Below are positions 45,269 to 64,000 of a stretch of DNA of 64,000 nucleotides, one piece after another (positions within the stretch are counted from its first letter, which is position 1; every line of letters starts with the position of its first letter). Location: NCBI RefSeq assembly GCF_003610235.1, contig NZ_RAPR01000001.1, positions 3,596,001-3,660,000 on the forward strand. The letters are read 5' to 3'. The notes beneath the pieces are model-generated. The model was not told where the DNA came from. It worked only from the letters and a program-made list of their open reading frames with translations, and did no database searches. Both the position numbers and the translations under genes were made by a program. This DNA comes from Catellatospora citrea. Its GTDB lineage: Bacteria > Actinomycetota > Actinomycetes > Mycobacteriales > Micromonosporaceae.

Positions 45269-45327
45269 TATTTGCCGCAGACAGCGGGACACAGCCGTCT
45301 ACGGCGGGACTCAACTGGACTGGCACG

Positions 45328-45368: not shown

Positions 45369-45378
45369 TTGCTGTTTG

Positions 45379-49189: not shown

Positions 49190-49343
49190 CGGCTGCCCGC
49201 GATTCGCCTGTCTGGCATCTGGCCCAGACAGGACCGCGCCGGCCGCGACCATCACTAGTGGTAGGCCACTGAGCTGCGAAAATGACGCCCAGGACACGCG
49301 TAGGCCCACACATAGCCCCCGGTGTGCCCCTGACGGTTCCCGG

Positions 49344-49757: not shown

Positions 49758-49870
49758 ACGATCCACCTGTCAAACATACGTTCGACAAGATGCGGTCATT
49801 TAGACCACCACACCCTTACCTACATGTGATCTTGTGTGATTGGGCGTAGTGGCTAACTGTGCACCTGACG

Positions 49871-49884
49871 TACGATGAATCGTA
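49871..49884 (+). promoter_or_regulatory. Operator-like palindrome at the element 3 antitoxin start
   Basis: TACGA-tgaa-TCGTA overlaps the first candidate ATG of the antitoxin gene. It would allow direct autorepression. Confidence 0.5.
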
Positions 49885-50096
49885 TGAAGTCACGTGTGAC
49901 GCTCTCTCTCGAAGAGAGCACCATCAACTACCTGTCCAAGCGTGCGCAGGTCGAGACAGGCGGCAACGTCTCGGCGCTGCTGGAGCGCGTCGTGCACGCC
50001 GCCGCCGTGACCGAGTCGGCCAAGCAGCACGCTGCCTGGTTTGCCGCACGCCCCGACTACGCCGATGCTGCCGAGGCTGAGCGGTACGCCGCGTGA
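49875..50096 (+). CDS. Antitoxin of a PemK/MazF-type system
   Basis: The 73-residue product (MNRMKSRVTLSLEESTINYLSKRAQVETGGNVSALLERVV) has a ribbon-helix-helix pattern: an initial strand RVTLSL and two helices. The second ATG (49884, MKSRV) may be the true start because the palindrome covers the first. The C-terminal half is Ala/Glu-rich. The stop overlaps the toxin start as GTGA, as in element 2's pair, though the sequences differ. Confidence 0.78.
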   Translation: MNRMKSRVTLSLEESTINYLSKRAQVETGGNVSALLERVVHAAAVTESAKQHAAWFAARPDYADAAEAERYAA

Positions 50097-50404
50097 TCCC
50101 GGCCCGTGGCGACATCTGGCGCTACACCCCCGCCGTACCGCGCCCTGGCCAATCGACGCTACGGCTGATCGTCAGCAGCGACGGCATCAACCGCGTGCAA
50201 GAGCTACCCGTCGTCCTGGCACTTCACATCGTTGACGACGATCCCGGCGGGCTGCTGGCCGTGGCCGTACCCCCGTACGGATGGGCTACGGCGCTCACGA
50301 TCGAACCCGTGATGAGGTCCCGACTGGCCGAACACGTCGACACCATCGACGCAGCGTCACTAGACAACGTATCTGCGGCATTACGCGCTGCTCAGGACCT
50401 GTAA
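50093..50404 (+). CDS. PemK/MazF-like toxin
   Basis: The 103-residue protein starts at GTG 50093: MIPARGDIWRYTPAVPRPGQSTLRLIVSSDGINR. The RGDIW start and the C-terminal helix SLDNVSAALRAAQDL fit the MazF/PemK fold, though the middle (VVLALHIVDDDPGGLLAVAVPPYG) is divergent. Family members cleave mRNA; activity here is not provable by eye. It is followed directly by the left copy of the element 3 repeat module. Confidence 0.72.
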   Translation: MIPARGDIWRYTPAVPRPGQSTLRLIVSSDGINRVQELPVVLALHIVDDDPGGLLAVAVPPYGWATALTIEPVMRSRLAEHVDTIDAASLDNVSAALRAAQDL

Positions 50405-50427
50405 AGCGCCGAAGCGACACGTGGGGT

Positions 50428-50519
50428 GGGGGTAACCCGTCCCACCCGTCCCACCCGTCCCAGGGCAGCTCAGCCCTGGGACGGGATCTTGAGTGGGACG
50501 GGTTGAGCCGTCCCACTCG
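50428..50519 (+). repeat. Element 3 repeat module, left copy (CCCGTCCCA type)
   Basis: Three tandem 9-base units CCCGTCCCA (50436-50462) are followed by a hairpin CCCAGGGC/GCCCTGGG and a 26-base palindrome AGTGGGACGG-gttgag-CCGTCCCACT (50492-50517). About 92 bases match the complement of 63536-63627, with only about ten to fifteen differences. Confidence 0.88.
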
Positions 50520-50524
50520 ATCGC

Positions 50525-51517
50525 TTACGGCATGGTCCCGCGATCGGTGATTACTATCGGTTCACGTACTTCGATCATGGCGACTTTCCAGCCACCGAAC
50601 GTCACCCGCTCTACGGTGATCACCCACGTCTCGGCGCTCTTATCGATCTGGAAGCGCCGATCACCTGGCATGAACCGGCCCTCCGAGGCGAACTCCACCG
50701 AGTAGGTGAGCACCACCCGGTTCCCGTCGTCGCGCCGATCCTTCGGCGAGAGCTGCAAGGTGATCAGGTACGCGTACGTGTTCTGTACGTCCCACCAGCG
50801 AGCGAACGCTCCCCGCGGCTGCGGGTCGGTGATCAGGGTGTCGAACTCTTCGTCATGTACGCCCTGGTAGCGCAGGCTGTAGCTCTGACCCTCCGGGCAG
50901 TCAGCCTCCACTAGCTCCCCCGCCTTGTGGTACCACCGGCCCGTGTCCGACAGGCACGAGGTGGCTTCCAGCGCGCGCACTGCCGCTTCCGGCGTCTGCT
51001 CACCGACCAGCCCGAAGCCGCGCGTGCGCGTCCACACGTGCCAGCCCAGCGCCGCGCCGTTGCCGCCGAGCAGCACTGTCACGGCGACCAGGTAGACCAG
51101 CGACCGGCGGCCCCTCCCGCGAGAGCCGCCGAGCCACCACGCGGTGACGACGCCCAGGGCGACCAGCACACCCCACGCCCAACCGAGGTAGCCCAACGGC
51201 CACCACGGATCGGGCCACCACACCGCGAACGTCGCGTACGTCAGCAGGTACGGCGCTTGCGTGGCGACGACTCGTGCACGTGCCGGCCGCGCCGCGAACG
51301 CCCACCAGCACACCGCAGCGTGCGTGCCGACGATCAGCGCACTGCACAGCGCGAACACCCCGACCGCGCCGAGCTTCGTCTCACCGAACAGCCGCAGCAA
51401 CCCCACGGCCCCGCCGCCCAGGCCGCCGCCGCAGGCGGCCAGCGTGAACGCGAGGAGGCCGCCAGCGGCGGCCCCCACTCGTGCCCTCCTTGAAGTTGTA
51501 TTGATCTCCATGCACAA
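50525..51517 (-). CDS. Multi-pass membrane protein with extracytoplasmic domain
   Basis: The 330-residue product has about five membrane helices (residues 14-36, 47-72, 85-100, 108-128, 140-160) and a C-terminal soluble domain (about 175-330) with CLSDTG and ADCPEG Cys residues and TYSVEFASEGRFMPGDRRFQID. The architecture resembles AICE cargo membrane proteins. Function unknown. The first Met is preceded by a weak site; MEINTTSRR two codons on is an alternative. Confidence 0.7.
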   Translation of the reverse strand: MCMEINTTSRRARVGAAAGGLLAFTLAACGGGLGGGAVGLLRLFGETKLGAVGVFALCSALIVGTHAAVCWWAFAARPARARVVATQAPYLLTYATFAVWWPDPWWPLGYLGWAWGVLVALGVVTAWWLGGSRGRGRRSLVYLVAVTVLLGGNGAALGWHVWTRTRGFGLVGEQTPEAAVRALEATSCLSDTGRWYHKAGELVEADCPEGQSYSLRYQGVHDEEFDTLITDPQPRGAFARWWDVQNTYAYLITLQLSPKDRRDDGNRVVLTYSVEFASEGRFMPGDRRFQIDKSAETWVITVERVTFGGWKVAMIEVREPIVITDRGTMP

Positions 51518-51678
51518 GATCCTAAATCAGTGGATCAACCGCCCGTCGTGATGACCCTGGCCAGCCGTCCGTAGGGGCGTTGGGGGACGTTTCCGAGACA
51601 TCGGGCCTATGTTCTGGGTCTACCGTCGTCCCCTGCACGCGGTGTTCTGCTAGCCGTCCGACGCCTACCGTCTACGTC

Positions 51679-52413
51679 ATGACTGACATCGCTGCCGCTG
51701 TGCCGCTGCTGGTTCTCTGGGACGTTGACGACACGCTGATCTTCAACGGCGGCGTGAGCAAGGAGGCGTACGCGCTGGGCTTCAAGCTTCTTACGGGCAG
51801 GAGCCCGGTGGAGAAGGTGATCACGGACGGCATGACCGACACGGGCATCATGCGATCGCTCTTCGAGCGGCATGGCATGGTCCTCACACCCGAACTGGCC
51901 GCCCAGGCGCACGAGGTCATGCCCACTGCCTTGGGGTCACTCGTGCCGCAGCTACGCGAGCGTGGTCATGCCATGCCTGGCGCACGCGCTGCGATCGACG
52001 CCCTGGGCAAGGAAGTGGGCGTCACGCAGTCTGTGCTGACCGGGAACATCGGGCCTAACGCGTACACCAAGGTTGCGACGTTTGGCCTGGCTGATGGCCT
52101 CGACTTCGAGGTCGGCGGCTACGGTTCGGATCACGAGGTGCGGGCGGAGTTGGTGCCCGCGGCCCGTGCGAAGGCAGCGAGGAAGTACGGGATCGAGTTC
52201 ACGCCAGCTACAACCGTGCTCATCGGCGACACCCCCCGCGACGTTGAGGCCGGCCGCGTCGGAGGCGCGTACGTGGTGGCCGTTGCGACGGGGAAATTCG
52301 ACTCCGAGACCCTGGCCGGGCTCGGTGCTGACGTGGTCCTGCCTGACCTCCGGGACACTGCGCGTGTTGTCGAGGCGGTCCTATCGATCCGCGGGCTGCT
52401 GGACGCTCGCTGA
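51679..52413 (+). CDS. HAD-superfamily hydrolase
   Basis: From ATG 51679 the product is 244 residues. The catalytic motif DVDDTLI (near 17-23) fits HAD motif I, with cap-domain helices after it (MTDTGIMRSLFERHGM). Motif III/IV is VLIGDTPRDVEAGRVGGAYVVAV. The overall form is phosphoglycolate-phosphatase-like; substrate unknown. It is convergent with and overlaps the next gene's 3' end by 33 bases. Confidence 0.85.
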   Translation: MTDIAAAVPLLVLWDVDDTLIFNGGVSKEAYALGFKLLTGRSPVEKVITDGMTDTGIMRSLFERHGMVLTPELAAQAHEVMPTALGSLVPQLRERGHAMPGARAAIDALGKEVGVTQSVLTGNIGPNAYTKVATFGLADGLDFEVGGYGSDHEVRAELVPAARAKAARKYGIEFTPATTVLIGDTPRDVEAGRVGGAYVVAVATGKFDSETLAGLGADVVLPDLRDTARVVEAVLSIRGLLDAR

Positions 52414-53160
52414 GGGCGGCTCGGCAGCCTGATGGGTGTAGGCGGCCTCCCAGACGCGCTCGAATGACTCGGCGTACATGTCGAAGAGGTCGCCTCCCTC
52501 GCACCGTCGAAGATGCAGGATCGGGGCGCGGTAGCCGTACACCCCGTAGGCGTGCTGGTTGACCAGCATTTCTTCGTCGTACATGAAGACGGAGTTGTAG
52601 AGCGTCGTCCGGTGCAGGCGGAAGTCGATGTTCGGCACGCCGAGCAGCGGGCGGTAGTACGCGATCGCCATACGTACCCGCCCGACCAGTCCGTCATAGA
52701 GCTGTTCCTCGGCCCCTCGGAGGGCAATCTCCGGCGTCTCTGGGTCGCCCAACGCGATCCGAATGCGTACCCCTGCTGCTGCCTTCTCACGCAGCAACCG
52801 GATGGACTCCGGGTTGTCCTCGGGCAGGAACAGGCTGGCGTACGCCATGAGCACGATCTCCCGCTGAGCGCCACGTAGAAGGTCCAACCACATGGACTTC
52901 GGCACCAGGTGGCGGTGCGGGTAGAACCCGAGAACCTCGGCTTCCGACGCCGCAGTGCGGCTGTCCTCCAGCGCGGGCCAAAGGTAGGCAGCCTGACTGC
53001 CGAGCAGGCGGGCTGCGGTCAGCGCGGTTGTCCGGTGCGGGACGGTGTCTCGGGTGATCCAGCGTTCGACCGTCTTGGGATCTACGCCTAGCTCGCTCGC
53101 GAACTTTTGGGTGGTGAGCCCGGCAGTTTGCATGACGCTGCGTAGACGCTCATTCGCCAT
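52381..53160 (-). CDS. XRE-type HTH protein with PLD-like C-terminal domain
   Basis: From ATG 53160 the product is 259 residues; 20 further open codons upstream are unlikely. The N-terminus is an XRE helix-turn-helix (LRSVMQTAGLTTQKFASELGVDPKTVERWI). The C-terminal part (LLRGAQREIVLMAYASLFLPED, VRIRIALGDPE, VNQHAYGVYGYRAPILHLRR) resembles the phospholipase-D-like DUF5919 region, seen with XRE domains in actinobacterial elements. A regulatory role is likely; nuclease activity is unproven. Confidence 0.75.
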   Translation of the reverse strand: MANERLRSVMQTAGLTTQKFASELGVDPKTVERWITRDTVPHRTTALTAARLLGSQAAYLWPALEDSRTAASEAEVLGFYPHRHLVPKSMWLDLLRGAQREIVLMAYASLFLPEDNPESIRLLREKAAAGVRIRIALGDPETPEIALRGAEEQLYDGLVGRVRMAIAYYRPLLGVPNIDFRLHRTTLYNSVFMYDEEMLVNQHAYGVYGYRAPILHLRRCEGGDLFDMYAESFERVWEAAYTHQAAEPPSASVQQPADR

Positions 53161-53308
53161 TGGACACGGCCATCCTCGTGAGGGGCATTCAGGGACATGA
53201 ACATGATCCGTCAAATGCACCAGGATGGGAAACCCACGCGGTGGGAACGCCCGTGATGTCCAGCGTTTGATCGATGCATGACGGACTGCATGAGTGCATG
53301 GACATCAA

Positions 53309-53542
53309 TCACGCTGAACGCTTCGGCCCCGGTGCCGCCGGCGGAATTCCCTCCTCCCGGGCGAGCTTACGGAGGTAGGCACCGGTGAACGGCGAGAGCC
53401 GTTCAACCTCGGCCGGCCCCACGCCTGCACGTAAGGCCGCGAGCGAGGCAGAAATCGCACCACGGCGCGCCTCCTCGTGGTCCGCCTCGGTCTTGCGATA
53501 GCGCCTCGTAGCTGCGGCAAGTTCACTTCGCACATCAGTCAC
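53309..53542 (-). CDS. Small Arg-rich helical protein
   Basis: From GTG 53542 the product is 77 residues (VTDVRSELAAATRRYRKTEADHEEARRGAISASLAALRAGVGPAEVERLSPF as pattern: a charged coiled helix then a short HTH-like GVGPAEVERLSPFTGAYLRKLAREEG). The GTG lies six bases after a TACTCT hexamer, implying a leaderless transcript. It may be a DNA-binding regulator. Confidence 0.65.
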   Translation of the reverse strand: MTDVRSELAAATRRYRKTEADHEEARRGAISASLAALRAGVGPAEVERLSPFTGAYLRKLAREEGIPPAAPGPKRSA

Positions 53543-53543
53543 C

Positions 53544-53600
53544 GCATCAGAGTAGCGGAACCCACTTGCGCAACTCGCCCTCGTATCGCTACTCTGATGC
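53544..53600. promoter_or_regulatory. 14-bp inverted repeats, divergent promoter/operator
   Basis: Perfect arms GCATCAGAGTAGCG (53544-53557) and CGCTACTCTGATGC (53587-53600) flank 29 bases containing TTGCGCAA. Each arm gives an outward TACTCT hexamer that could be a -10 element. One leads to the small Arg-rich gene; the other points toward the transfer genes. Confidence 0.65.
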
Positions 53601-53982
53601 GCAACACGCAAGCGCAACTAAGAATCGCTTCGGGGGTTCTGGCAGCGCTTCTGCACAGCAACGCCGGTAGGTGGCGGGGCGGCGAGGTGGCTTCGGCTGC
53701 GTCGTGCGCTACGGCCCCCGCGCACTTGTTCTTTGGTGAATTTCATAGCGACAGGAAAAGGCGCTGGCTACAGCCGCTCCGAGCATCCCTGCCTTGAGCC
53801 ACACGGTGGCCGACCCCGGCATGTCCGGGCGAGCGGGGCGAACGAGCAGAAGGGCTGGCGCTGACTGCACTGATCCATCTGGCCGCTTGCCGGCCGAGTG
53901 TTTCGCGCCGGGCGCGGTCCATGTGGCCGCGCCCGGCCGACATCTGCTCCTGACCGCATCTGACCTGGAAGAGGTGGACGTG
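53601..53982. other. Leader region of the AICE operon, no gene seen
   Basis: This stretch has frames open in both directions but no convincing codon pattern. It probably forms the 5' region of the plus-strand element 3 operon. Confidence 0.35.
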
Positions 53983-54126
53983 ATGACCCTCGCCGCATCT
54001 GTTCGTGTCTCGATCCGTTCGTCGGCCGCGTGGCGTGAGTGCCGCTGCGGTCGCCTGGTTACGCAGCCCGCCGACGACGGCCGTTGCCCCCACCGTTCCA
54101 CCCGTGCGCGCCGCTCGGCGCGCTGA
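53983..54126 (+). CDS. Small Cys/His protein
   Basis: ATG 53983 has GAGGTGG upstream and opens a 47-residue frame (MTLAASVRVSIRSSAAWREC) with ECRCGRLVTQPADDGRCPH, a possible single zinc site. A frame extending back to 53794 is less convincing. It precedes a strong terminator, so it may be a leader-like small protein of the element. Confidence 0.5.
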   Translation: MTLAASVRVSIRSSAAWRECRCGRLVTQPADDGRCPHRSTRARRSAR

Positions 54127-54205
54127 CAGCTTCCGTGGGGCTGGGCTCGCCCAGCCCGCGCGGTAGCCGCCAGGGTGGCGGCGCGCGATTGACGCGCAGA
54201 AAGAC

Positions 54206-54239
54206 GGCCCCAGCGGGATTGCCGCCCGCTGGGGCCTTT
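54206..54239 (+). terminator. Terminator or attenuator before the AICE core operon
   Basis: Twelve-base arms GGCCCCAGCGGG and CCCGCTGGGGCC with a 7-base loop are followed by TTTC, 36 bases before the next gene. Confidence 0.75.
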
Positions 54240-54274
54240 CGCACCCAACTCCGCCTGCTGAAGGGAAGAGAGCG

Positions 54275-54685
54275 ATGCCTGTTCAGGCTATCGCGTCGGC
54301 ACCTGCCGACGAGCCGGGCGCTGCCTGGCTGACCAACGAACACCCCCTCGCCGGTGTGGCGGCTCGCCACTGTGCCAGCCACGTCCACATCGATCCGGCC
54401 GACCTGGTCGGACAGGTCGCCTGCGGGTCGGCCTGGGCCAAGGCCCTGACCGATGACCTGCTGTTCGCCCTCGAATGCGGTCTCCCGCTGGAGATCGAGC
54501 CGGACCCGTTCTACGTCGATGAGGTCGCGGTCCGGCGCGCCATGCGCGGCGAAGAGCTGGAGCTGACCGAGCTGGAGCGCGCAGAGGTCAAGCGCCGCCT
54601 GACCGCCATCCGCAACCGCCGCAACCGGCCCTACCGGTTCGCGTGCTCCCACGCCGCTGCGACGCGGCGGGAGACGGCGCGGTGA
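54275..54685 (+). CDS. AICE operon protein, function unknown
   Basis: The 136-residue product (MPVQAIASAPADEPGAAWLT) has no signal or membrane segment. A central acidic helix region (EEIEPDPF-like LEIEPDPFYVDEVAVRRAMRGEELELTELERAE) precedes a basic tail. It is the first gene of a run of eleven or more tightly coupled plus-strand genes. Its stop overlaps the next start as GTGA. Confidence 0.7.
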   Translation: MPVQAIASAPADEPGAAWLTNEHPLAGVAARHCASHVHIDPADLVGQVACGSAWAKALTDDLLFALECGLPLEIEPDPFYVDEVAVRRAMRGEELELTELERAEVKRRLTAIRNRRNRPYRFACSHAAATRRETAR

Positions 54686-54987
54686 ACGGCCAGATCGACC
54701 TATTCACCGGCGCGGTTGCCGAGCTAGAGCCCGCGCCGGTGGTGCCGGTGCGGCGGGCGGTCCGCCCGCCGCTGGAGCCGGGGCAGGTGCGCTACGCCTC
54801 GTTCGGCGGGCAGCGCGACTGTGACGACTGCTGGCAGGCCCAGGCCGACGCGCACGCGGCGGGCGGCAAGGTGCCGATGCGGCGCCGGGCCGGCAGCACC
54901 CGCGAGACCGCCACCAGCGCAAAGGCGTACCTGTGCGAGCCGCACAAGCTCGACCGCCAGTCCACGGACAAGGAGGTCGAGGTCTGA
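54682..54987 (+). CDS. Small zinc-finger-like AICE protein
   Basis: From GTG 54682 the product is 101 residues (MNGQIDLFTGAVAELEPAP). It contains QRDCDDCWQAQADAH and YLCEPHKLD, giving a CxxC...C..H set that could bind zinc. It overlaps both neighbours, so translation is coupled. Function unknown; small Cys-pair proteins at this position are common in actinobacterial elements. Confidence 0.7.
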   Translation: MNGQIDLFTGAVAELEPAPVVPVRRAVRPPLEPGQVRYASFGGQRDCDDCWQAQADAHAAGGKVPMRRRAGSTRETATSAKAYLCEPHKLDRQSTDKEVEV

Positions 54988-55328
54988 TGCCTCGCACTCG
55001 TGCCGGCCGCGCCATCGGCGACATCGCCCGCGCGGTCGCCCGCGGTGAGCTGACCGCAGCCCAGGCCGCAGCACTCACGGCCCGGATTCGCGCCGGGCAG
55101 CGGCAGGCGCTCTACCGCGCTGCCCTGGACACCCTGGCCGCGCCGGGCGAACCGGTGCAGGTGCGGCTGATCGGCCGTACCGGGGACGTGGCCAACCTGC
55201 TGACCGTCCTGGACGAGACAACGGCCCTGACCGGCGTGTCCGACCCGTACCCGACTTCCCGGCCCGGCGTGGTGCGCGTGTACGCGACCGCCGAGCGCCG
55301 CCACCCACTCATCGGAGGCTCGAAATGA
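54987..55328 (+). CDS. AICE operon protein, function unknown
   Basis: From ATG 54987 (TGATG overlap) the product is 113 residues. Its N-terminus is helical (RAIGDIARAVARGELTAAQAAALTARI), and a beta pattern follows (PVQVRLIGRTGDVANLLTVLDE, RPGVVRVYATAE). No family was recognised. The stop overlaps the SpdB-like gene start. Confidence 0.68.
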   Translation: MPRTRAGRAIGDIARAVARGELTAAQAAALTARIRAGQRQALYRAALDTLAAPGEPVQVRLIGRTGDVANLLTVLDETTALTGVSDPYPTSRPGVVRVYATAERRHPLIGGSK

Positions 55329-56698
55329 CCGCACCCACAGCCACCTACCCGGCGTCGGTCGCCGACCTGGTAGACGACTTCAAGCTCTGGGCTGCCGAGC
55401 TGGGCACGACCCCGTCAGCCAACGCGACCCGCAAGCGGTTCCGGATCGGCAACGACAAGGCCAACGCCCTGCTGGCCACCCTGACCGCGCCCGCTCCCGA
55501 CGAGCGCCTGACCTCCGGCCCGGCCACCCAGCCGCCAGCCGAACCGACCGGCCCGGCCCCGGTGCCGGAGGTCACCGCCGCGCCGGTCGCGGTGGAGCCG
55601 TCGCCGCTGGCCGTGGTGGACGTGGACCCAGGTCCCGAGATCGGCCCCGCACCGATCCCGCCGCCCGCGCCCGCCGCGCCGGTTGTCGCCGAGGCTGGCG
55701 GACAGGTCGACGGCTGGCCGGTGGACGAGGTGGCCGCGAAGCTGGACAGCGAGCGGGCGCGGCTGAGCGTGAAGCGTGAGGACACCCTGGCGCGGCGGGC
55801 GATGGAGGCCGAGCACCGTATCGCGATGGGCGACGTGCGCGAGCAGGCACGCGCCGCCAAGCGGGCACGCGGTGAGCGGGCGCGGGACGCGGCGGACGCG
55901 GCGGCGCTGTCGGCGCTGTACCGGCGGGCGCAGCGCTCGGGCACCAGGGCGCGGCTGCGGGCGCAGATCCAGGGGTCGGCGGAGATGCGGGCGCTGCGCG
56001 TGGCCCGCGTGCGGTCGGTGATCCTCGCCGCCGGTGTGCCGCTGCTGGCCGCGTTCGCGGCCTGGTCCACCACCGGTGTTCAGGCCGGTGTGGTCAAGCT
56101 GCTGAACCTGGACAGCGGTTCGGCGGGCTGGTGGGCCGCGTGGGCAATGGAACCCGCGTTGATCGCGATCGTCGGTCTGATCATCATCGGGCGGGCGATG
56201 CTGCGTTCGGCCGGTGGCGACACCGACGCCCGCGCCCTGATCATCGAGTGGTCGGCGCTGTTCACGTCGCTGGCGCTGAACATCATCGGCGGTTGGGATT
56301 CCAGCCTGCCCCAGGACCAGCAGTACGGGCCGATGCTGGCGCACTCGGTCGGCCCGATCGGCGCGGCCACCGTGGCGTTCCTGATCGGCCTGTTCGACGG
56401 CTACGTCAGCGCCGCCCGGCCGTGGCACGGCGCGCCCAAGCTGGCGGAGATGGATCTCGACATGGCTGCGGTCATGGGGACTCGTCCGGATGCCATCAAC
56501 CGCCCCGAACACCCCCGCGCGCACCTGCTGCCCGGCGATGTCCGGACGCTGCTGGACGACACCCGCGCCGCCGTCGCTGACGGCACCCTGACCGCCGAGC
56601 CCAGCGCCTACGCCATCCACAAGCACGTGATGGGTGGACGCGGCGACAAGGCCAAGGCGTCGCGGGTCGCGGCGCTGCTGGCGCACCAGGCCGCCTGA
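55325..56698 (+). CDS. SpdB/DUF2637-like membrane protein
   Basis: The 457-residue protein has an N-terminal region with an HTH-like stretch (TPSANATRKRFRIGNDKANALLATL), a Pro/Ala linker, an Arg-rich coiled region (about 130-220), and four membrane helices (about 225-350). The helix block (VILAAGVPLLAAFAAWSTTGVQAG, WWAAWAMEPALIAIVGLIIIGRAML, SALFTSLALNIIGGWDSSL, VGPIGAATVAFLIGLFDGYVSA) matches the DUF2637 pattern of conjugal spread proteins. It probably aids intramycelial spread with the FtsK-like translocase. Confidence 0.82.
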   Translation: MTAPTATYPASVADLVDDFKLWAAELGTTPSANATRKRFRIGNDKANALLATLTAPAPDERLTSGPATQPPAEPTGPAPVPEVTAAPVAVEPSPLAVVDVDPGPEIGPAPIPPPAPAAPVVAEAGGQVDGWPVDEVAAKLDSERARLSVKREDTLARRAMEAEHRIAMGDVREQARAAKRARGERARDAADAAALSALYRRAQRSGTRARLRAQIQGSAEMRALRVARVRSVILAAGVPLLAAFAAWSTTGVQAGVVKLLNLDSGSAGWWAAWAMEPALIAIVGLIIIGRAMLRSAGGDTDARALIIEWSALFTSLALNIIGGWDSSLPQDQQYGPMLAHSVGPIGAATVAFLIGLFDGYVSAARPWHGAPKLAEMDLDMAAVMGTRPDAINRPEHPRAHLLPGDVRTLLDDTRAAVADGTLTAEPSAYAIHKHVMGGRGDKAKASRVAALLAHQAA

Positions 56699-56794
56699 CC
56701 GGCCGCCTCCGTGCGGGCCAGGACTTCGCCAGTCCTGGCCCGTCGCGGTGGCCGCCAGATCGGCGACCGGCACCACCAGCCCGAAGGAGCCCTC

Positions 56795-57235
56795 GTGGCT
56801 AACGAGACCACCCTGACCCTGGTCGGCAACCTCACCGCCGACCCCGAGCTGCGCTTCACCCCGGCCGGGGCGGCGCTGTGCAAGTTCACCGTCGCGTCCA
56901 CCCCGCGCAACTACGACAAGGGCACCGGGGAGTGGAAGGACGGCGAGGCCCTGTTCATGAACTGCTCGGCCTGGCGCGAGATGGCTGAGAACATCGCCGA
57001 ATCCCTGCACAAGGGCTCGCGCGTCGTGGTCACCGGCCGCTTGAAGCTCAACCGGTGGAAGACCCCGGAAGGCGAGAACCGGCAGGCGATGCAGCTGGAC
57101 GTCGAGGAGGTCGGCCCGTCGCTGCGCTACGCGACGGCGCAGGTCAAGAAGCTGACCCGCACCGGAGGCGGCGCGCCGGCCGCGACTGAGGCGAACCCGT
57201 GGGAGAGCAACACCAACGACGAGCCTCCGTTCTGA
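56795..57235 (+). CDS. ssb: Single-stranded DNA-binding protein
   Basis: From GTG 56795 (AGGAG upstream) the product is 146 residues. The OB fold is clear: [31 protein letters not shown], then [31 protein letters not shown], and the C-terminus ends NDEPPF, the acidic partner-binding tail. An element-borne SSB fits the autonomous replication step of AICEs and may protect transferred or replicating DNA. Confidence 0.94.
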
Positions 57236-57325
57236 CCGACCGGGCCGTCACCGTGCGCGCCGAGCAGCAGTGTTCGGCGCGGGCGGTGGCCGCCATCGTG
57301 GCAGGTCAGAGAGGGGATCGTCACC

Positions 57326-57595
57326 TTGTTCACGATCGTCATCAACTACCCCGCCGACCTGGACTCGCTCATGCGGTGGACCAGGCGGCTGCGGACGGCC
57401 TGGCAGGCCAGCAGCGCGATCGGGGTCCTGTGCCTAGTCGGCGCGGCGTACGCCGCGTTCACCGGCCACGGCTGGACCGCCGCCGGTGTGTTCCTGCTGA
57501 GCGGGCTGTGCGGCGGCGCGATGGAGGGCCTGGAATTCCTCATCGAGCAGACCGAGCAGCGCTGCGAGGCGCTGCTGACCGCCGACCGGCCCTGA
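57326..57595 (+). CDS. Small two-helix membrane protein of the AICE
   Basis: From TTG 57326 (GAGAGGGG upstream) the product is 89 residues (FTIVINYPADLDSLMRWTRRLR). Two helices (SSAIGVLCLVGAAYAAFTG and AAGVFLLSGLCGGAMEGLEFLIEQ) follow. It lies in the transfer cluster between ssb and the translocase genes. Spread-type function is possible but not shown. Confidence 0.65.
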   Translation: MFTIVINYPADLDSLMRWTRRLRTAWQASSAIGVLCLVGAAYAAFTGHGWTAAGVFLLSGLCGGAMEGLEFLIEQTEQRCEALLTADRP

Positions 57596-57687
57596 ACCAC
57601 CTGTGCCGGGGCGTGACCCGACTGGCCGCCAAACCGCAGGCCACGCCCCGGCGCACCCCTCCATCCGACAGGAAGGTGCACGCCATC

Positions 57688-57981
57688 ATGTCAACCCTCC
57701 CCACCGGCCCGTTCCCGGTGTTCGAGCCCGACGACGCCTTGCCCGACCAGTTGGCCGCGCTCGAACTGTGGCTGTGCGTTCGCTTGGACACCGGCCGCGA
57801 CCACTTCGCCGCGCTGGAGACCGCGCACGCCTACGTGCAGTGGCTGGCATACCGCGCCGAGCAGATCCGCCAACAGCTCGAAGTCGACCTGTGGCCACCC
57901 GACCCGCACGCCCGGATCACCACTCCCTATGGCACCCCGAGCGTGCCGAGGTTCCCGAACCGCGACAGGAGGCACCCGTGA
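57688..57981 (+). CDS. Small AICE protein upstream of the translocase
   Basis: From ATG 57688 the product is 97 residues (MSTLPTGPFPVFEPDDALPD); a GTG at 57676 with the ribosome site at better spacing is an alternative. It is helical (QLAALELWLCVRLDTGRDHFAALETAHAYVQWL) and ends in a Pro/Arg-rich tail. Its stop overlaps the translocase start as GTGA. Function unknown. Confidence 0.68.
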   Translation: MSTLPTGPFPVFEPDDALPDQLAALELWLCVRLDTGRDHFAALETAHAYVQWLAYRAEQIRQQLEVDLWPPDPHARITTPYGTPSVPRFPNRDRRHP

Positions 57982-60050
57982 GCACCGACGACGCCCGGAT
58001 CGACTGGGACGCCTACGAGCAGGAACTTTCCACCGACGAGACTCCGGCCGTGCCGGTCGACGACCCCGACCAGGCCGGGCCGCCGCCCGGACCGGGCACG
58101 CGCCGTCCGGTGCTGCCGCGCTGGCTGCACTCGCCGCAGGCCGCCCGCGACCAGATGCGCTGGGCCATCGACTACAGCAGCCACGTCGCGGCCTACCACC
58201 TGGTGCGCGTGCCGTTCTACGGCGGCAAGCTCGCCCTGCGCGCCCCGCGCGGCCTAGGCCGAGTGGTCACGGGCGGGGTGCGGTGGATGTTCGACTGGGA
58301 GGCCGAGCAGCTGCGCCGCGCGATGGTGCGCGACGAGAACTCCGCCGAGTACATGAAACTCGCCAACAAGCGCGACCAGCGCGTACGGCTGCGAGTGTGG
58401 GTCGGCGCGTTCACGATGCTGGCCACCTGCGGCGGCGCAGCAGCGCTGACCGCCGCGCCGCTGGGCTGGCAGGCCGCCGCCCTGGCTACCGCCGTCGCCG
58501 GGCTGGGCCTGGTCGGCGGGAACCCCGACGCGCCGCTGCTGGGCACCGCCGTGGTGTCCCAGCGGATCTCGAAGCTGACCGGCGACGCGATCGAACGCGC
58601 CCTGCTGGCCCTCGGTATCGCCGGGATCAACCGGGCGGTGGCCAAAGACCCGCACGCGATCGGCTGGCCGGCACGCATCGGCCGGGAGGGCGCGGGCTGG
58701 CGGGCCGACATCGACCTGCCGCCCGGCGTGACCGCCACCGAGGTCATCGCCAAGCGCGAAGCACTCGCGTCGGCCCTGAGCCGCCCGCTGGGCTGCGTGT
58801 GGCCAGAGGGACAGCCGAAGGTCCACCCCGGCCGCCTGGTCGTGTGGGTCGGTGACCAGCAGATGAGCGAATCCAAGAACCCCGAATGGCCGCTGCTGCG
58901 CGCCGGGACGGTGAACCTGTTCAAGGCGTTCCCGCTGGGCACCGACCCACGCGGGCGCGCCGTGGAGATCACGCTCATGTTCGCCTCGATGCTGATCGGG
59001 TCGATCCCGCGCATGGGCAAGACGTTCACGCTGCGGCTGTGCCTCCTCGCAGCAGCCCTCGACCCGCGCGCCCAGGTGTGGCCGTTCGACCTGAAGGGCA
59101 CCGGCGACTTCCGGTGCCTGGAGCCGGTCGCGCACCGCTACCGGGCAGGCGACGACCACGACGACATCGAGTACGGCCTCACGGCGATGCGCGAGCTGCA
59201 CGCCGAGATGCGCCGCCGGACCAAGGTGCTGCGGGAACTGCCGCCGCACCTGGTCCCGGAGTCGAAGGTCACCGACGAGCTCGCCTCGCAGAAGTCCTAC
59301 GGCCTGTTCCCGATCGCCGTGGGCGTGGACGAGTGCCAGCGCTGGTTCGAGCACCCCGAGTACGGCGAGGAGCTGCGCGAGATCTGCGAGGACATCGTAC
59401 GGCGCGGCCCGGCGCTGGGCATCATGCTGCTGTTCGGCACCCAGCGCCCCGACAAGGACTCCATCCCGGCGAAGATCTCGGCGAACGTCGTGCTGCGGTA
59501 CGCGCTCAAGGTGGTCCACCACACCCCGAACGACATGATCCTCGGTTCGGGGATGCACACCTCGGGGATCTCGGCCACGATGTTCGCCCGCTCCGACAAG
59601 GGCATCGGCTGGCTGGTCGGTGAGGGCGACGAACCGCAGATCACCCGCACGCACGAGGTCGACAACCCCAAGGCCGAAGCGGTCGTCGCCCGCGCCCGCG
59701 CCGCCCGTGAAGCGGCCGGCACGCTGTCGGGCCACGCCCTGGGCGTCGTCGATGACGCGCCCGTGCGCCCGGCCCATGACGTGCTGGCCGACGTGCTGAC
59801 CGTCATCGGCCCCGACGAGCGCAACGCCGCGTCCGTCGCGGTCGCCGCGCGGCTGGCCGAGCTACGGCCCGAGGTCTACGCCGGATGGGACACCGGCAAC
59901 GTCTCGGCCGCGCTCAAGCCCTACGGCGTGGTCACCGGGCAGGTGTGGGCGACCGATCCCGACACCGGAAAGAAGAAGAACCTGTTCGGGATCAAGCGCG
60001 ATGACATCCTGTCCGCGATCGCGGAGCGTGACCGCAAGCGCGGGAAGTGA
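57978..60050 (+). CDS. FtsK/SpoIIIE-type DNA translocase, TraSA/TraB-like
   Basis: From GTG 57978 the product is 690 residues. Two membrane helices lie near residues 140-185. The ATPase has Walker A SIPRMGKTF (near 338-346) and Walker B IAVGVDECQRW (near 445-455), then FGTQRPDKDSIPAKI, all as in actinomycete conjugation ATPases that move double-stranded DNA. The C-terminus has a winged-helix-like part (VAARLAELRPEVYAGWDTGNVSAAL) suited to recognise a DNA transfer site. The palindromic region just downstream could be that site. Confidence 0.9.
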   Translation: MSTDDARIDWDAYEQELSTDETPAVPVDDPDQAGPPPGPGTRRPVLPRWLHSPQAARDQMRWAIDYSSHVAAYHLVRVPFYGGKLALRAPRGLGRVVTGGVRWMFDWEAEQLRRAMVRDENSAEYMKLANKRDQRVRLRVWVGAFTMLATCGGAAALTAAPLGWQAAALATAVAGLGLVGGNPDAPLLGTAVVSQRISKLTGDAIERALLALGIAGINRAVAKDPHAIGWPARIGREGAGWRADIDLPPGVTATEVIAKREALASALSRPLGCVWPEGQPKVHPGRLVVWVGDQQMSESKNPEWPLLRAGTVNLFKAFPLGTDPRGRAVEITLMFASMLIGSIPRMGKTFTLRLCLLAAALDPRAQVWPFDLKGTGDFRCLEPVAHRYRAGDDHDDIEYGLTAMRELHAEMRRRTKVLRELPPHLVPESKVTDELASQKSYGLFPIAVGVDECQRWFEHPEYGEELREICEDIVRRGPALGIMLLFGTQRPDKDSIPAKISANVVLRYALKVVHHTPNDMILGSGMHTSGISATMFARSDKGIGWLVGEGDEPQITRTHEVDNPKAEAVVARARAAREAAGTLSGHALGVVDDAPVRPAHDVLADVLTVIGPDERNAASVAVAARLAELRPEVYAGWDTGNVSAALKPYGVVTGQVWATDPDTGKKKNLFGIKRDDILSAIAERDRKRGK

Positions 60051-60096
60051 CCCAACCGGGAAAGCCGCGAATCCGGGCGAACCGTCTTGGCCGATC

Positions 60097-60134
60097 GCTC
60101 TAGGTCTAGAGCAACCGCGCTCTAGACCTAGAGC
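60097..60134. repeat. 16-bp inverted repeat with CTAG core
   Basis: Arms GCTCTAGGTCTAGAGC and GCTCTAGACCTAGAGC are perfect complements with a 6-base spacer, and each arm is itself a 7-base palindrome. A third half site CCCTAGAGC follows at 60137-60145. Confidence 0.85.
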
Positions 60135-60161
60135 ACGCCCTAGAGCACACCCGTACACCCT

Positions 60162-60194
60162 GGCCAGGCGTCTAGACGTCCTAGACGCCTGGCC
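60162..60194. repeat. 14-bp inverted repeat after the translocase gene
   Basis: Arms GGCCAGGCGTCTAG and CTAGACGCCTGGCC are perfect complements with a 5-base spacer. It contains the same CTAGA core as the preceding repeat. It lies in the only long non-coding gap of the transfer operon. Confidence 0.85.
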
Positions 60195-60228
60195 CCGCGC
60201 ACCCGAAACCGCCTCTGGAGGCACTTCC

Positions 60229-60477
60229 GTGGACCCCTCCGCGACTCTAGCCATGATCGGATGCGCCGCCGCATCCGCCGTGACGCTCGGTTATGCCGGG
60301 CTGTGCGCTGTCCAGCCGTTCGCCCGATGCGAACGCTGCCAGGCCACCGGCTGGCGACGCACCGCCGTGCTGCGCCGCCGCAAGGACTGCCGCCGCTGCA
60401 AGATGACCGGCTACCGCGCCCGGCGCGGCGTGCGCGTCTACAACCACCTGCGCCGCCTGTCCCGGGAGGTGCGATGA
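60229..60477 (+). CDS. Small zinc-ribbon protein
   Basis: From GTG 60229 (GGAGG upstream) the product is 82 residues. It has an N-terminal hydrophobic helix (ATLAMIGCAAASAVTLGYAGLCAV) and then CERCQATGWRRTAVLRRRKDCRRCKMTG, a DnaJ-type CxxCxxxG zinc pattern. It may be membrane anchored. The stop overlaps the methylase start. Confidence 0.72.
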   Translation: MDPSATLAMIGCAAASAVTLGYAGLCAVQPFARCERCQATGWRRTAVLRRRKDCRRCKMTGYRARRGVRVYNHLRRLSREVR

Positions 60478-61148
60478 ACCGCCCGAGGCTGCTCGACCTG
60501 TACTGCTGCGCCGGTGGAGCCACGCGCGGCTACCAACAGGCCGGATGGCACGTCACCGGCGTCGACAACGTCCCCCGCCCCGACTACTGCGGCGACGACT
60601 TCCACGAGGGCGACGCGGTCGCGTTCGCCCTCGCGCACGGCTCCAAGTTCGACGCGATCCACGGCAGCCCGCCGTGCAAGGACCACAGCATGTTGACCCG
60701 CTCCAACCGGGCGCGCGGCTGGACGGACCAGCACGTCAACCTGATCCCGCCGACCCGCGCGGCGCTGATCGCGTCGGGCCGGCCGTGGGTCATGGAGAAC
60801 GTCGTCGGCGCGCCCCTGCGGCCTGACCTGGTGCTGTGCGGGTTGATGTTCGGCCTGCGCGTGTTCCGCCACCGCCTGTTCGAGACCCACGGCTTCGCCG
60901 CGCTGGTCCCGCCGCACCCGGCGCACCGGGGACACCGCGTCGCCGGGTGGCGGGCCGGTGTCCGGCACGAAGGCGACATGTTCGCCGTGTACGGCGACGG
61001 CGGCGGCAAGGGCACCACCGAGCAGTGGCAGCAGGCCATGGGCATCGACTGGACCACCGACCGCGAAGCCATCACCCAGGCCATCCCACCCGCGTTCACG
61101 CACTTCATCGGAGAACACCTCCTCACCGCCGTGCAGGTGACCGCATGA
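60474..61148 (+). CDS. Cytosine-C5 DNA methyltransferase-like protein
   Basis: From ATG 60474 the product is 224 residues, short for the family. Motif I is LLDLYCCAGGATRGYQQAGW, the catalytic motif is GSPPCKDHS, and VMENVVGAPL is motif VI. Motif VIII-like sequence VFRHRLFETHG is present; the target recognition domain seems reduced, so the target is short or degenerate. No restriction enzyme gene is visible, so it is an orphan methylase, perhaps protecting the element in new hosts. Confidence 0.85.
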   Translation: MNRPRLLDLYCCAGGATRGYQQAGWHVTGVDNVPRPDYCGDDFHEGDAVAFALAHGSKFDAIHGSPPCKDHSMLTRSNRARGWTDQHVNLIPPTRAALIASGRPWVMENVVGAPLRPDLVLCGLMFGLRVFRHRLFETHGFAALVPPHPAHRGHRVAGWRAGVRHEGDMFAVYGDGGGKGTTEQWQQAMGIDWTTDREAITQAIPPAFTHFIGEHLLTAVQVTA

Positions 61149-61204
61149 CCCGCCCGCGTCACGACATCCCGCCGACCGCCGCACGCCCGAAGGAGCAGCC
61201 ATGA
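61145..61204 (+). CDS. Possible 19-residue coupled ORF
   Basis: ATG 61145 overlaps the methylase stop and its own stop overlaps the next ATG (61201), so a 19-codon frame (MTRPRHDIPPTAARPKEQP) bridges the gap exactly. This would support translational coupling. The AAGGAG site inside it serves the next gene. Evidence is positional only. Confidence 0.3.
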   Translation: MTRPRHDIPPTAARPKEQP

Positions 61205-61428
61205 TCCCGCGCATCTACGAAGCCGTCACCGGTAAGCCCTGGGTGACCACGACGCTCGACGTGACCACCGACGTCGGCCCCACCATCCGCGCCCGGTTCC
61301 CCGAGCTGAGCGTCTACAGCGACCTCGAAATCATGCGGTTCACCCCCGAGCAGGCCATCGCCGAGGGCCAGCGCCTGCGCGCCGAGCGCACCGCGCGGAC
61401 GGCGCCGCGCGCCCTCGCCCACCAGTGA
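61201..61428 (+). CDS. Small AICE protein, function unknown
   Basis: The 75-residue product (MIPRIYEAVTGKPWVTTTLD) starts at ATG 61201 with AAGGAG upstream. It has a beta-type N-terminus and an Arg/Ala helix at the end (AEGQRLRAERTARTAPRALA). No family was recognised. It sits between the methylase and primase genes. Confidence 0.65.
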   Translation: MIPRIYEAVTGKPWVTTTLDVTTDVGPTIRARFPELSVYSDLEIMRFTPEQAIAEGQRLRAERTARTAPRALAHQ

Positions 61429-61489
61429 CCGCAACCGGGACCGGCCGGCCACACGGTCGGCCGGTCCCCACCGCCACGCCGGAGGACAG

Positions 61490-62431
61490 ATGAGCAGCAC
61501 AACCCGAAGAGCAGACAGGCCGCCTGCGGCGGCTCACCCTCTGTTGGCGGCTGCGCTTCGCTACGCCGCCAACGGCTGGCCGGTGTTCATGCTGGGCCGG
61601 TCCAAACGGCCCGTGGCGCTGTGCCCGCCCTGCGAAGCGGCGCGCAAGGCCAAGACGCCACACGACCCGCAGGCGTGCCCCTGCCTGACCTGCCACGGGT
61701 TCTACGCGGCCATGACCGACCCGCACCGCATCGCCGCGATGCTGGCCGCCGTGCCGCGCGGGCTCCTGGCCATCCGCACCGGCGTCGCCTCCGGCCTGGT
61801 CGTCATCGATGTAGACCCCCGCCACGGCGGCACCCCGTCGCTGCAAGCCCTGATCGCACGCGGACTCACCCCGCCCACCCGGTACGTGCGTACCGGCGAC
61901 AACGGGCTGCACCTGTACTACCGCCACCCCGGCGGGATCACGATCCCCGGCGACCAGGGCAAACGGCTCGGCCCCGGCATCGACGTGAAGGCAGACGGCG
62001 GCTACGTCGTCGCGCCGCCCTCACGCCATCCCGTCACCGGTCGTCCGTACCAGTGGGCCGACCAGGCCACGCGAGTAGAGGAGGCGGCCCCCGCGCTGGT
62101 GGCTGCCTGTGTCGCCGAGGTACGGCGGCGCGCGCCCGTCCGTCCCGCCGGCCACCACCAGCCCCCGCGCAGCGGGGGGGCCGCCTCCTTCCCCGACCGA
62201 CTCATGACCGCGCTGGCCGCCCGAATCCACCAGGCCCCACAGGGCAAGCGGCGCGTCACCCTGTTCGGCTGTGCCCGCGGGGCCGCCCGCATGGTCGCCG
62301 CAGGCCAGATGACCAGCACCGACGCCTATGACGCCCTCGTGTCGGCCTGCGACGCCGCAGGCTGGCCGTGGGCCAAGTCCACCCCGAACGCGATCCGTGA
62401 AGGGTTCGCCGCAGAAGGAGTGACACTGTGA
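61490..62431 (+). CDS. Bifunctional DNA primase/polymerase (Prim-Pol)
   Basis: The 313-residue protein starts at ATG 61490 after GGAGG. It has the Prim-Pol pattern: ALRYAANGWPVFMLG at the start, RTGVASGLVVIDVDPRHGG (catalytic Asp pair, near 97-115), GDNGLHLYYRHPG, and GIDVKADGGYVVAPPSRH (near 165-182). The Cys pairs CPPCEAA and CPCLTC are an inserted zinc-binding loop. It initiates element replication and pairs with the downstream ATPase. The stop overlaps that gene as GTGA. Confidence 0.9.
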   Translation: MSSTTRRADRPPAAAHPLLAAALRYAANGWPVFMLGRSKRPVALCPPCEAARKAKTPHDPQACPCLTCHGFYAAMTDPHRIAAMLAAVPRGLLAIRTGVASGLVVIDVDPRHGGTPSLQALIARGLTPPTRYVRTGDNGLHLYYRHPGGITIPGDQGKRLGPGIDVKADGGYVVAPPSRHPVTGRPYQWADQATRVEEAAPALVAACVAEVRRRAPVRPAGHHQPPRSGGAASFPDRLMTALAARIHQAPQGKRRVTLFGCARGAARMVAAGQMTSTDAYDALVSACDAAGWPWAKSTPNAIREGFAAEGVTL

Positions 62432-63657
62432 CCCGACCACCAGCCAAAACACGCCCCGCCGTCGACGGCGCTGCGCTCCTGGACCGCGTACACGCCACGA
62501 TCGCGCGCTACTGCGTGCTGCCCTGCCCCGAAGCCGTCGACGCGGTCACGCTGTGGATCGCCGCGACGCACGCCCAGGAGGCGTGGGCGTACGCGCCGCG
62601 CCTGATCATCCGGGCACCGCTGCGCCGCTGCGGCAAGTCCCGCCTGCTCGACGTGGTCGAAGCCGCGTGCCACAACCCGATGATGAGCGTCAACGCCTCC
62701 CCGGCCGCGATCTACCGCACGGTCGGCATGGGCTCCACGATGACGCTGCTGCTGGACGAGTTCGACGCGATCTTCGGCGCGAAAGCCTCCGGAGACGAAG
62801 ACCTGCGCGGACTGCTCAACGCCGGCCACCAGCGCGGGCGACCGGTGAGCCGCTACGACGCGGGCACCCAGCGCGTGGAGCACATCGAGACCTTCTGCAT
62901 GGTCGCCATGGCCGGGATCGGCCTCGCCCCCGAAACCATCGAGGACCGGGCCGTCATCGTCAAGATGCGCCGCCGCGCCGCCGGAGAGACCGTCAAGCCC
63001 TGGCGACTGCGCCGAGACCGGCCGATCATCACCGGGCTCGCGACCGAGCTACGCGAGTGGCTCGCCCCGCACCTGGCCGAGCTGGAGACCGCCGAGCCGG
63101 TCATGCCCCTGGAGGACCGCGCCGCCGACACCTGGGAACCGCTGATCGTCATCGCCGACTTCGCCGCAGGCGACTGGCCCGAGCGCGCGCGGGCGGCCGC
63201 TGTGCTGCTCAGCGAGGAAGCCGACCGCGTAGCGACCAACTCCGACTCCGGCCGGCTGCTGGCCGACATCCGCAACGCGTTCGGCACCGAAGAGGCCCTG
63301 CCGACCGCCGGACTGCTCGCCAAGCTGCGCGCCGACGACGAAGCGCCGTGGGCGACCTGGGACAAGACCGGGCTCACCCCGATCAGGCTCGCCGCGATGC
63401 TGCGCGAGTACGACATCCGCAGCAGCAACATCCGCTTCCCCGCCCCGCTCGGCCAGACCAAGGGCTACCGGCGCGCCGACTTCACCGACGCGTGGTCGCG
63501 CTACTGCCCCGAAACCACCGACAGTGACGACAACGGTGAGTGGGACGGCTCAAGCCGTCCCACTCAAGATCCCGTCCCAGGGGTGAGCAGCGTTGGGACG
63601 GGTGGGACGGGTGGGACGGGTACCCCCCTCCCCTTGCGTCTCATCCACTCTCGGTGA
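62428..63657 (+). CDS. DUF3631 replication ATPase
   Basis: From GTG 62428 the product is 409 residues. Walker A-like PLRRCGKSRLLD (near 69-80) and Walker B LLLDEFDAIFGAK (near 108-120) are clear, as is the DUF3631 body (RPIITGLATELREWLAPHL, DIRSSNIRFPAPLGQTKGYRRADF). It is the helicase-like partner of the Prim-Pol. The last 35 residues (VGTGGTGGTGTP) come from the right copy of the inverted repeat module lying inside the gene's 3' end, so its C-terminus is shaped by the cis element. Confidence 0.87.
   Translation: MTRPPAKTRPAVDGAALLDRVHATIARYCVLPCPEAVDAVTLWIAATHAQEAWAYAPRLIIRAPLRRCGKSRLLDVVEAACHNPMMSVNASPAAIYRTVGMGSTMTLLLDEFDAIFGAKASGDEDLRGLLNAGHQRGRPVSRYDAGTQRVEHIETFCMVAMAGIGLAPETIEDRAVIVKMRRRAAGETVKPWRLRRDRPIITGLATELREWLAPHLAELETAEPVMPLEDRAADTWEPLIVIADFAAGDWPERARAAAVLLSEEADRVATNSDSGRLLADIRNAFGTEEALPTAGLLAKLRADDEAPWATWDKTGLTPIRLAAMLREYDIRSSNIRFPAPLGQTKGYRRADFTDAWSRYCPETTDSDDNGEWDGSSRPTQDPVPGVSSVGTGGTGGTGTPLPLRLIHSR
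63536..63627 (-). repeat. Element 3 repeat module, right copy, inverted
   Basis: It contains the palindrome AGTGGGACGG-ctcaag-CCGTCCCACT (63539-63564) and three 9-base units TGGGACGGG (63594-63620). It mirrors 50428-50519 in inverted orientation and overlaps the DUF3631 coding sequence. Confidence 0.88.
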
Positions 63658-63661
63658 CATC

Positions 63662-63696
63662 GAGCGTGCCCGCCCCATCCAGAGGCGGGCACGCTC
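63662..63696 (+). terminator. Terminator of the AICE core operon
   Basis: Thirteen-base arms GAGCGTGCCCGCC and GGCGGGCACGCTC with a 9-base loop begin four bases after the DUF3631 stop. Confidence 0.85.
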
Positions 63697-63761
63697 CATC
63701 CCCGACAGTTCAGAGCAAACCAGCGCTAAACGCGAGCAACGCCCATGTAATAGACACCAAT

Positions 63762-63799
63762 CACGCTGAGATCTTGGCTCAGCGTGGCCCTCAGGGCCG
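63762..63799 (+). promoter_or_regulatory. Palindromes upstream of the excisionase gene
   Basis: CACGCTGAG-atcttgg-CTCAGCGTG (63762-63786) and GGCCCTCAGGGCC (63787-63799) lie directly before the xis gene. They may be an operator or an attenuator. Confidence 0.55.
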
Positions 63800-63831
63800 T
63801 TTCCACTGGGGAGGAGACACAGTGACCACCG

Positions 63832-64000
63832 CAGCCATCCCGAGACAGCGCACCAGCGAAGAGAAGCTGACGCTCCCGGAAGTTCTGGCAGAACTCAAGA
63901 TCACACGCTCAACCTTCTACGACTGGCGGGCAAAGCGGCGCGCCCCTCGCTGCCTGAAGTGGCCAAACGGCGAACTGCGCGTGCGGCGCAGCGACCTAGA
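63832..64000 (+). CDS. Excisionase-like HTH protein, cut by window end
   Basis: From GTG 63832 (GAGGAG upstream) 56 codons are visible: TSEEKLTLPEVLAELKITRS then TFYDWRAKRRAPRCLKWPNG and ELRVRRSDL. This is a MerR/Xis-type winged-helix domain, very similar to the fragment at 43368. In AICEs it precedes the integrase gene, predicted to begin just right of the window. Confidence 0.85.

Follow-up and report, generated by a model that had tools for sequence, protein, structure and literature searches.

Why should an integrated mobile element carry two inverted copies of one iteron-bearing module some 13 kb apart? The question is raised by a 64,000-nt stretch of the Catellatospora citrea genome (NZ_RAPR01000001.1, positions 3,596,001 to 3,660,000; hereafter the window), in which an earlier note had recognised such a pair and placed it around the 13-kb core of an actinomycete integrative and conjugative element (AICE). 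The comparisons reported here suggest that the replication origin of an AICE of the RepAM/Prim-Pol type is divided between the two modules, one half in each, a reading to which we assign a probability of about 0.72. The initiator would be the product of the DUF3631 (RepAM) gene (62428 to 63657, + strand; PF12307, E 6.5e-62), whose neighbour, a separate open reading frame (ORF), encodes the bifunctional primase/polymerase Prim-Pol (61490 to 62431, + strand; PF09250, E 2.7e-40). DUF3631 beside Prim-Pol is a trait of RepAM/Prim-Pol AICEs, as is a tyrosine integrase with attachment (att) repeats at a tRNA gene, and both traits were present.

The inverted module pair

Both copies lay at the positions given in the earlier note, and the pair is real, although the match, estimated at about 92 bases, proved slightly longer. 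Alignment of the copies gave an inverted repeat of 108 nt with 88% complementarity, the arms of which, separated by 13,019 nt, are the left module M+ (50411 to 50518, + strand; the displaced half of the proposed origin) and the right module M- (63538 to 63645, - strand; the DUF3631-side half). Both showed the unit pattern +++--+ in a fixed order, namely three 9-bp iterons followed by two hairpins, A and B, made of the iteron unit. The three units described for each copy were found as tandems of CCCGTCCCA at 50436 to 50462 (+) and 63594 to 63620 (-). The dyad of the iteron unit was also confirmed, but there were two per module instead of the single palindrome first reported. Hairpin A occupied 50454 to 50485 (+) in the left module, where the third iteron doubles as its left arm and the loop motif is CAGCTCA (50466 to 50472), and 63571 to 63602 (-) in the right module, with the loop motif CTGCTCA. 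Hairpin B, an inverted iteron pair in the left module, occupied 50491 to 50518 (+) and 63538 to 63565 (-). Folded as single-stranded DNA, each strand of each module surpassed its shuffled versions (z from -5.8 to -6.9), and 0 of 200 shuffles were as good.

The left module follows the toxin gene, as had been noted, being located 3' of a PemK-like ORF (50093 to 50404), and the right module overlaps the last codons of the DUF3631 ORF, the encoded tail of which is predicted to be disordered. The element itself, about 20.2 kb, is larger than the 13-kb core, and the pair divides its circle into arcs of approximately 13.0 and 7.0 kb. A search of the 9.33-Mb genome of the strain at E<=1 returned seven matches, comprising the two modules, three palindromic module parts and two weak matches elsewhere (E 0.084), with no third copy of the module. 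A mobile repeat scattered outside the element was set aside because the module has two copies in its own genome. At E 1e-3, the DNA of the left module matched nothing in phages or plasmids.

Repeat arrays beside DUF3631 in related elements

The left-module search gave matches in 34 of 300 genomes of the family, the genome of the strain itself counted. A DUF3631 gene with the module at its 3' end was present in 25 of the 35 module-matched loci; DUF3631 was not seen in the other ten (L053, L062 and L066 to L073). Since these loci had been chosen by the module, which biases the 25 loci and the window element for any count of modules against DUF3631, a second sample was taken by DUF3631 matches alone. 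Such matches occurred in 43 of the 394 class genomes and 66 of the 300 family genomes searched, and the resulting unbiased set held 100 new loci (L134 to L233; 51 from the family and 49 from the class; G636:C200, G068, G040 and G239 left out). With an array defined as at least six exact copies of one 7-mer within -150 to +450 of the domain end, an array was found at the DUF3631 3' end in 78 of the 100 loci (47/51 family, 31/49 class), and in 75 this end held or tied the densest repeat of the whole locus. As background, 87 of 2159 random 600-bp segments of 128 loci reached six 7-mer copies. Among all 126 anchored loci (L053 was not anchorable), the array was present in 103 and densest or tied in 98. 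Arrays also adjoined DUF3631 in 13 of the 28 loci where neither Prim-Pol nor TraB, as the FtsK/SpoIIIE-like transfer protein is named here, turned up.

The iteron units varied by element and mostly fit CCG-NNN-C. In the 100 loci with a clear call, the core was TCC in 39, TAC in 36, CTA in 10, and TAA, GAA and CCA in 4 each, with three singletons. A pattern search yielded 97 modules in 57 loci, including one false call (in L153, at -30) and some poor ones; the hairpin A loop read C[AT]G[GC]TCA in 86 of the 97. The hairpin arms were Watson-Crick paired in 78 to 90 of 90 modules, counts that are partly built in, as the search required arms like the locus unit and the unit frame varies between loci. 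For this reason, a blind search with an open middle base was run on the 75 TCC and TAC loci, and it recovered 77 modules in 42 loci. The middle base was C in 45 to 48 of the 48 modules of TCC loci at each of the six units, and A in 27 to 28 of the 29 modules of TAC loci at five units, against 19 of the 29 at the third iteron. Of the 77 modules, 62 had one and the same middle base throughout their six units.

Several further loci were observed in passing. L165, L168 and L172 carried arrays of 17 to 18 units with an apparent extra module. The strain has a second DUF3631 element, L176 (G000:C1:4170619-4190149), with an adjacent pair and the iteron AACCGTCCC; its core is identical to that of the window iteron and the flank differs, so that the two elements may compete or be distinguished by the flanking bases. 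Two circular Streptomyces plasmids of 13.5 and 14.3 kb (L251, NZ_CP108827.1; L252, NZ_CP108973.1), with 12 to 13 CCGCTAC units beside DUF3631, appear to be AICEs that have been excised and persist as free replicons. The DUF3631 genes of L245, L246, L248 and L253 (Gammaproteobacteria and Pseudomonas phage Phipami28) also had short 3'-end repeats (4 to 8 copies of a 7-mer, with different units), in small samples with no null; the hairpin A loop motif was found in 0 of 6 gammaproteobacterial and phage DUF3631 loci. The module at L053:9946-10032 is an orphan: neither DUF3631 nor any other of the element genes queried was found in 19.9 kb.

Order and spacing of the modules

The usual layout was both modules back to back at the DUF3631 3' end. 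All 33 full adjacent pairs, 15 of them from the unbiased set, were in the order M+ then M-, with a start-to-start distance of 51 to 144 bp. The blind search gave '+-' in 35 loci (six being separated pairs), '+' alone in seven, and the reversed order in none of the 75 loci searched. The string of loop motifs 3' of DUF3631 in the unbiased loci was '+-' in 54, '-+' in 2, none in 12 and other in 32.

The clear separated pairs numbered eight, the window included, and were 1.5 to 17.7 kb apart. The whole core lies between the modules in the window (13.1 kb), L039 (13.9 kb), L055 (13.2 kb) and L040 (17.7 kb). In L042 and L051 (1.5 kb) M+ lies within the 3' part of the Prim-Pol ORF, with DUF3631 between the modules, and both Prim-Pol and DUF3631 separate the halves in L052 (2.6 kb) and L214 (about 2.7-2.8 kb), for which the L052 modules and the near module of L214 were called by eye from the sequence. 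Relative to DUF3631, the order was M+ then M- in 8/8. These pairs represent at most four independent separations, because they fall into four groups: the Catellatospora-like loci, L042 with L051 (one genus), L052, and L214 (another family). L040 has, in addition, a third, partly decayed module (L040:1988-2074), 1 kb from its far module.

Judged from these layouts, the distance between the modules is free and their relative orientation is conserved. A bracketing, looping or protective function around the 13-kb core is therefore unsupported, because most relatives with two full modules have them side by side, and others enclose DUF3631 with or without Prim-Pol only. Transposon-like gene capture between inverted repeats was likewise set aside because the full modules are adjacent in 33 loci.

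Covariation of the iteron with DUF3631

Which protein reads the iteron was approached by a nearest-neighbour test on 73 loci with all four candidate proteins, in which a shared iteron core was scored (permutation mean approximately 27). The core was common with the nearest neighbour by DUF3631 in 57 of the 73, by Prim-Pol in 46, by TraB in 41 and by the integrase in 38, the permutation maxima being 45, 44, 43 and 42, respectively. When DUF3631 was divided into parts, its C-terminal part matched the core in 86 of 99 loci, the AAA+ part in 72, the helical part in 71 and the whole protein in 74.

Residue 334, in the C-terminal domain, was the strongest correlate of the iteron middle base. It was Asn in 39/39 TCC loci, in agreement with Asn334 of the window protein, and Thr in 31, Asn in 4 and Lys in 1 of the 36 TAC loci; in the unbiased set alone, Asn accompanied TCC in 19/19 and Thr accompanied TAC in 25/30. 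For the other cores, it was Lys in 4/4 GAA loci, Asn in 8 and Pro in 1 of 9 CTA loci, and Val in 3 and Pro in 1 of 4 TAA loci. On a tree built without the wing, at least 18 changes of the iteron core were counted. For nine independent, well-supported pairs, the change of core was accompanied by the matching change of residue 334 in an average of 7.8 and by the opposite one in none (median p 0.008); the corresponding values for the next-best column, residue 79, were 2.0 and 0.4. A further 20 loci were then drawn from another family, f19 (seven f19 loci were in the first set); they were the best-scoring unused ones of 54 matches and had at least six copies of their core. In these, Asn was found with middle base C in 13/13 and Thr with A in 7/7 (six TAC, one TAA), residue 334 of L258 and L275 being assigned by eye.

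From this covariation we infer that the C-terminal winged-helix-like domain of DUF3631 binds the iterons. The structure comparison of predicted DUF3631 pointed to an AAA+ core of the MCM/SF3 kind, with MCM as the closest fold, and PriRep1 with double-stranded DNA was among the best Foldseek matches. DUF3631 thus seems to combine a self-loading helicase and an origin reader. The cross-locus comparison gives good support to the proposal that the units serve as replication iterons for a multi-subunit protein, and a role in incompatibility would fit an element-specific iteron that tracks its initiator.

Alternative explanations

Several observations weigh against the reading of the modules as origin halves. 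The array threshold was not reached in 22 of the 100 unbiased loci, the long splits are confined to one genus, five TAC loci lack Thr334, and the far module of L039 is mismatched to its own DUF3631. Moreover, L207, L208 and L210, relatives of L214 at about 2.1-2.5 kb, have far modules at the Prim-Pol start that are ambiguous, their unit string being self-mirrored; they fit by the loop motif only (CAGGTCA on the plus strand in all three), and the pattern search called that of L210 minus with 4 mismatches. A printed prediction and a short motif, both taken up below with rolling-circle replication, point the same way.

It is possible, if unlikely, that only the near module works as the origin and the far copy is a relic or a second DUF3631 site acting on copy number or incompatibility via titration or handcuffing. 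Such an arrangement would accommodate L039, the orphan module of L053 without a DUF3631 nearby, and the 17 loci with one full module by pattern search, in many of which a second, less perfect module is suggested by the unit strings. It does not account for the orientation kept in all of the clear separated pairs, nor for the agreement of far and near middle bases in those scored, L039 excepted. Furthermore, the far module appears conserved in isolation, being the sole alignable stretch within flanks of 2.4 and 3.4 kb in L055 and of 9.9 and 1.8 kb in L062, a locus that stops at a contig end and in which DUF3631 was not seen.

We consider a bidirectional bubble origin with two head-to-head helicase rings, resembling a double hexamer, to be less probable again. 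The predominance of adjacent full pairs and the MCM-like fold would suit it. However, adjacency would then be needed and the split elements would be defective or use one half, whereas four groups, one of them from another family, have separated modules with good iterons, and the far ones look selected.

A rolling-circle double-strand origin is very unlikely. The conserved nick heptamer of the pC194 type, CTTGATA, was found in 0 of 90 modules, and CTTGA with or without a leading T in just 24 of 90. Neither the DUF3631 nor the Prim-Pol ORF matched a rolling-circle Rep family (Pfam, E 1e-3), DUF3631 has an AAA+ helicase fold, and the inverted double module would be left unexplained. In favour of this mode, 16 of 90 modules, the two of the window among them, carry TCTTGA in the spacer that separates hairpin A from hairpin B, the only such support found, and rolling-circle replication from a pC194-like nick site is the mechanism predicted in print for RepAM (PMC3218068, section 7, which relays the nick-site claim of te Poele's review). 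The RepAM AICEs of that paper (pMEA300 type) resemble the present element in that Prim-Pol is sometimes adjacent, but the paper never uses the term 'iteron'.

Binding sites of TraB for double-strand conjugative transfer (clt) are a highly improbable identity for the modules: the element has a candidate FtsK-like Tra and the short direct repeats are like known clt repeats, but TraB predicted the unit about as the integrase did, both within the permutation range, and arrays adjoin DUF3631 in 25 of 43 loci without a TraB found, some of which lie on short contigs. Transcription terminators or RNA attenuators, suggested by strong hairpins next to gene ends, are hardly credible, since T-runs rarely follow the hairpins (5 of 97 modules had TTTT within 8 nt past hairpin B, and 8 and 3 of 90 had T4 and T5, respectively, in the spacer after hairpin A), Rfam gave no family at gathering score in 44000-64000 (ten matches at E<=1 on 50350-50600, all below that score), and the direct iterons and the protein covariation would go unexplained.

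A proposed mechanism and known systems

If the modules are origin halves, the C-terminal domain of DUF3631 would read the 9-bp iterons, and the protein, to judge by its fold, may form a ring on each module and open the DNA, exposing the hairpins. Prim-Pol, the proposed primer maker, or another primase would start one strand per module, and strand-displacement synthesis could then proceed from both around the circle. Owing to their inversion, the modules would serve opposite strands, which would explain why their starts lie 51 bp apart in one element and 17.7 kb apart in another, with no change of relative orientation observed. The M+ half of the window pair would be displaced by 13 kb from its usual site beside M-. 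Two strand-specific start sites, such as ssiA and ssiB (single-strand initiation, ssi) of RSF1010, would be expected to show just this combination of free distance and fixed orientation. The fullest form of the proposal is tentative, and we rate it a little below an even chance: a bipartite origin whose halves drift kilobases apart, even round a whole gene core, with only relative orientation selected, read by the C-terminal domain of an AAA+ initiator through a one-residue/one-base code (Asn334 for C, Thr334 for A) that has switched many times.

RSF1010 reportedly requires opposite ssi orientation. Iterons with two opposed hairpin sites, as in the RSF1010/IncQ oriV, are present in the window pair. 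According to the sections consulted of PMC6925257, PMC4434180 and PMC4234260, that origin also has one hairpin initiation site per strand and an element-encoded primase and helicase; one of them (PMC4434180) adds that earlier work indicated the leading-strand mode only. RSF1010 differs in using three proteins, RepA, RepB' and RepC, where one DUF3631 seems to be both iteron reader and AAA+ motor, and in the present modules the hairpin stems are the iteron itself and the halves are up to 17.7 kb apart. The Sulfolobus plasmid pRN1, as far as the portions of PMC4234260 used here describe it, likewise has a Prim-Pol, an AAA+ helicase and a C-terminal winged helix, in one polypeptide instead of two ORFs. 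Its origin, a single 100-nt stem-loop without iterons just 3' of the rep (Prim-Pol) gene, functions when moved, and those portions describe no inverted pair. The array 3' of DUF3631 has a similar position, its status as an origin being putative.

The alpha protein of phage P4 is, in the accounts drawn on, also a primase-helicase with a winged helix binding origin repeats, but its primase is of the Toprim kind. P4 has a second, separated cis site, crr, besides ori, and we know of no strict inverted module pair in it. The staphylococcal self-loading helicase PriRep1 resembles DUF3631 by the Foldseek match given above. In the staphylococcal pathogenicity islands (SaPI), the iterons are matched by the C-terminal part of Rep and flank an AT-rich stretch, whereas the modules here are GC-rich hairpins.

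Other features of the element

The element extends from the left att repeat (45264 to 45430, + strand) to the right att repeat (65506 to 65671) at tRNA-Tyr (65617 to 65700), the latter two beyond the window. Immediately right of the right module are a helix-turn-helix ORF, xis-like by eye, and the tyrosine integrase (L008:1032-2468; phrog_1, E 4.2e-32). A candidate TraB is encoded at 57996 to 60050 (+; PF01580, E 2.6e-4, 20.9 bits, under the 24-bit cut-off), and the ORF at 56711 to 57235 (+) is one that we take by eye to be SSB-like. The left arm carries as cargo the gene of a single HNH plus superfamily 2 helicase-like protein (45933 to 47843) and the PemK-like toxin gene, the PemK match of which was 21.9 bits, under the cut-off of 23.1. 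To the left of the element, extra att copies (38953 to 39035 and 39513 to 39589) and a second integrase (43600 to 44802; 48% identical to that of the element) mark a remnant element of about 6 kb, which lies in tandem with the first at one tRNA site. The closest named relatives of the DUF3631 protein were those of Catellatospora tritici (78%), C. methionotrophica (72%) and C. paridis (69%); it matched no family in NCBIfam or PHROGs, and a sequence search of the PDB gave a single match, at E 0.67.

Implications

DUF3631, still a domain of unknown function in Pfam, gains a testable role as origin reader and helicase, and a large class of actinobacterial mobile elements would gain a recognisable origin. 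The rule linking residue and base would predict which origins an initiator reads and, with it, the elements that may be rivals within a cell. Finally, the split pairs may serve as natural experiments on whether origin halves must adjoin.

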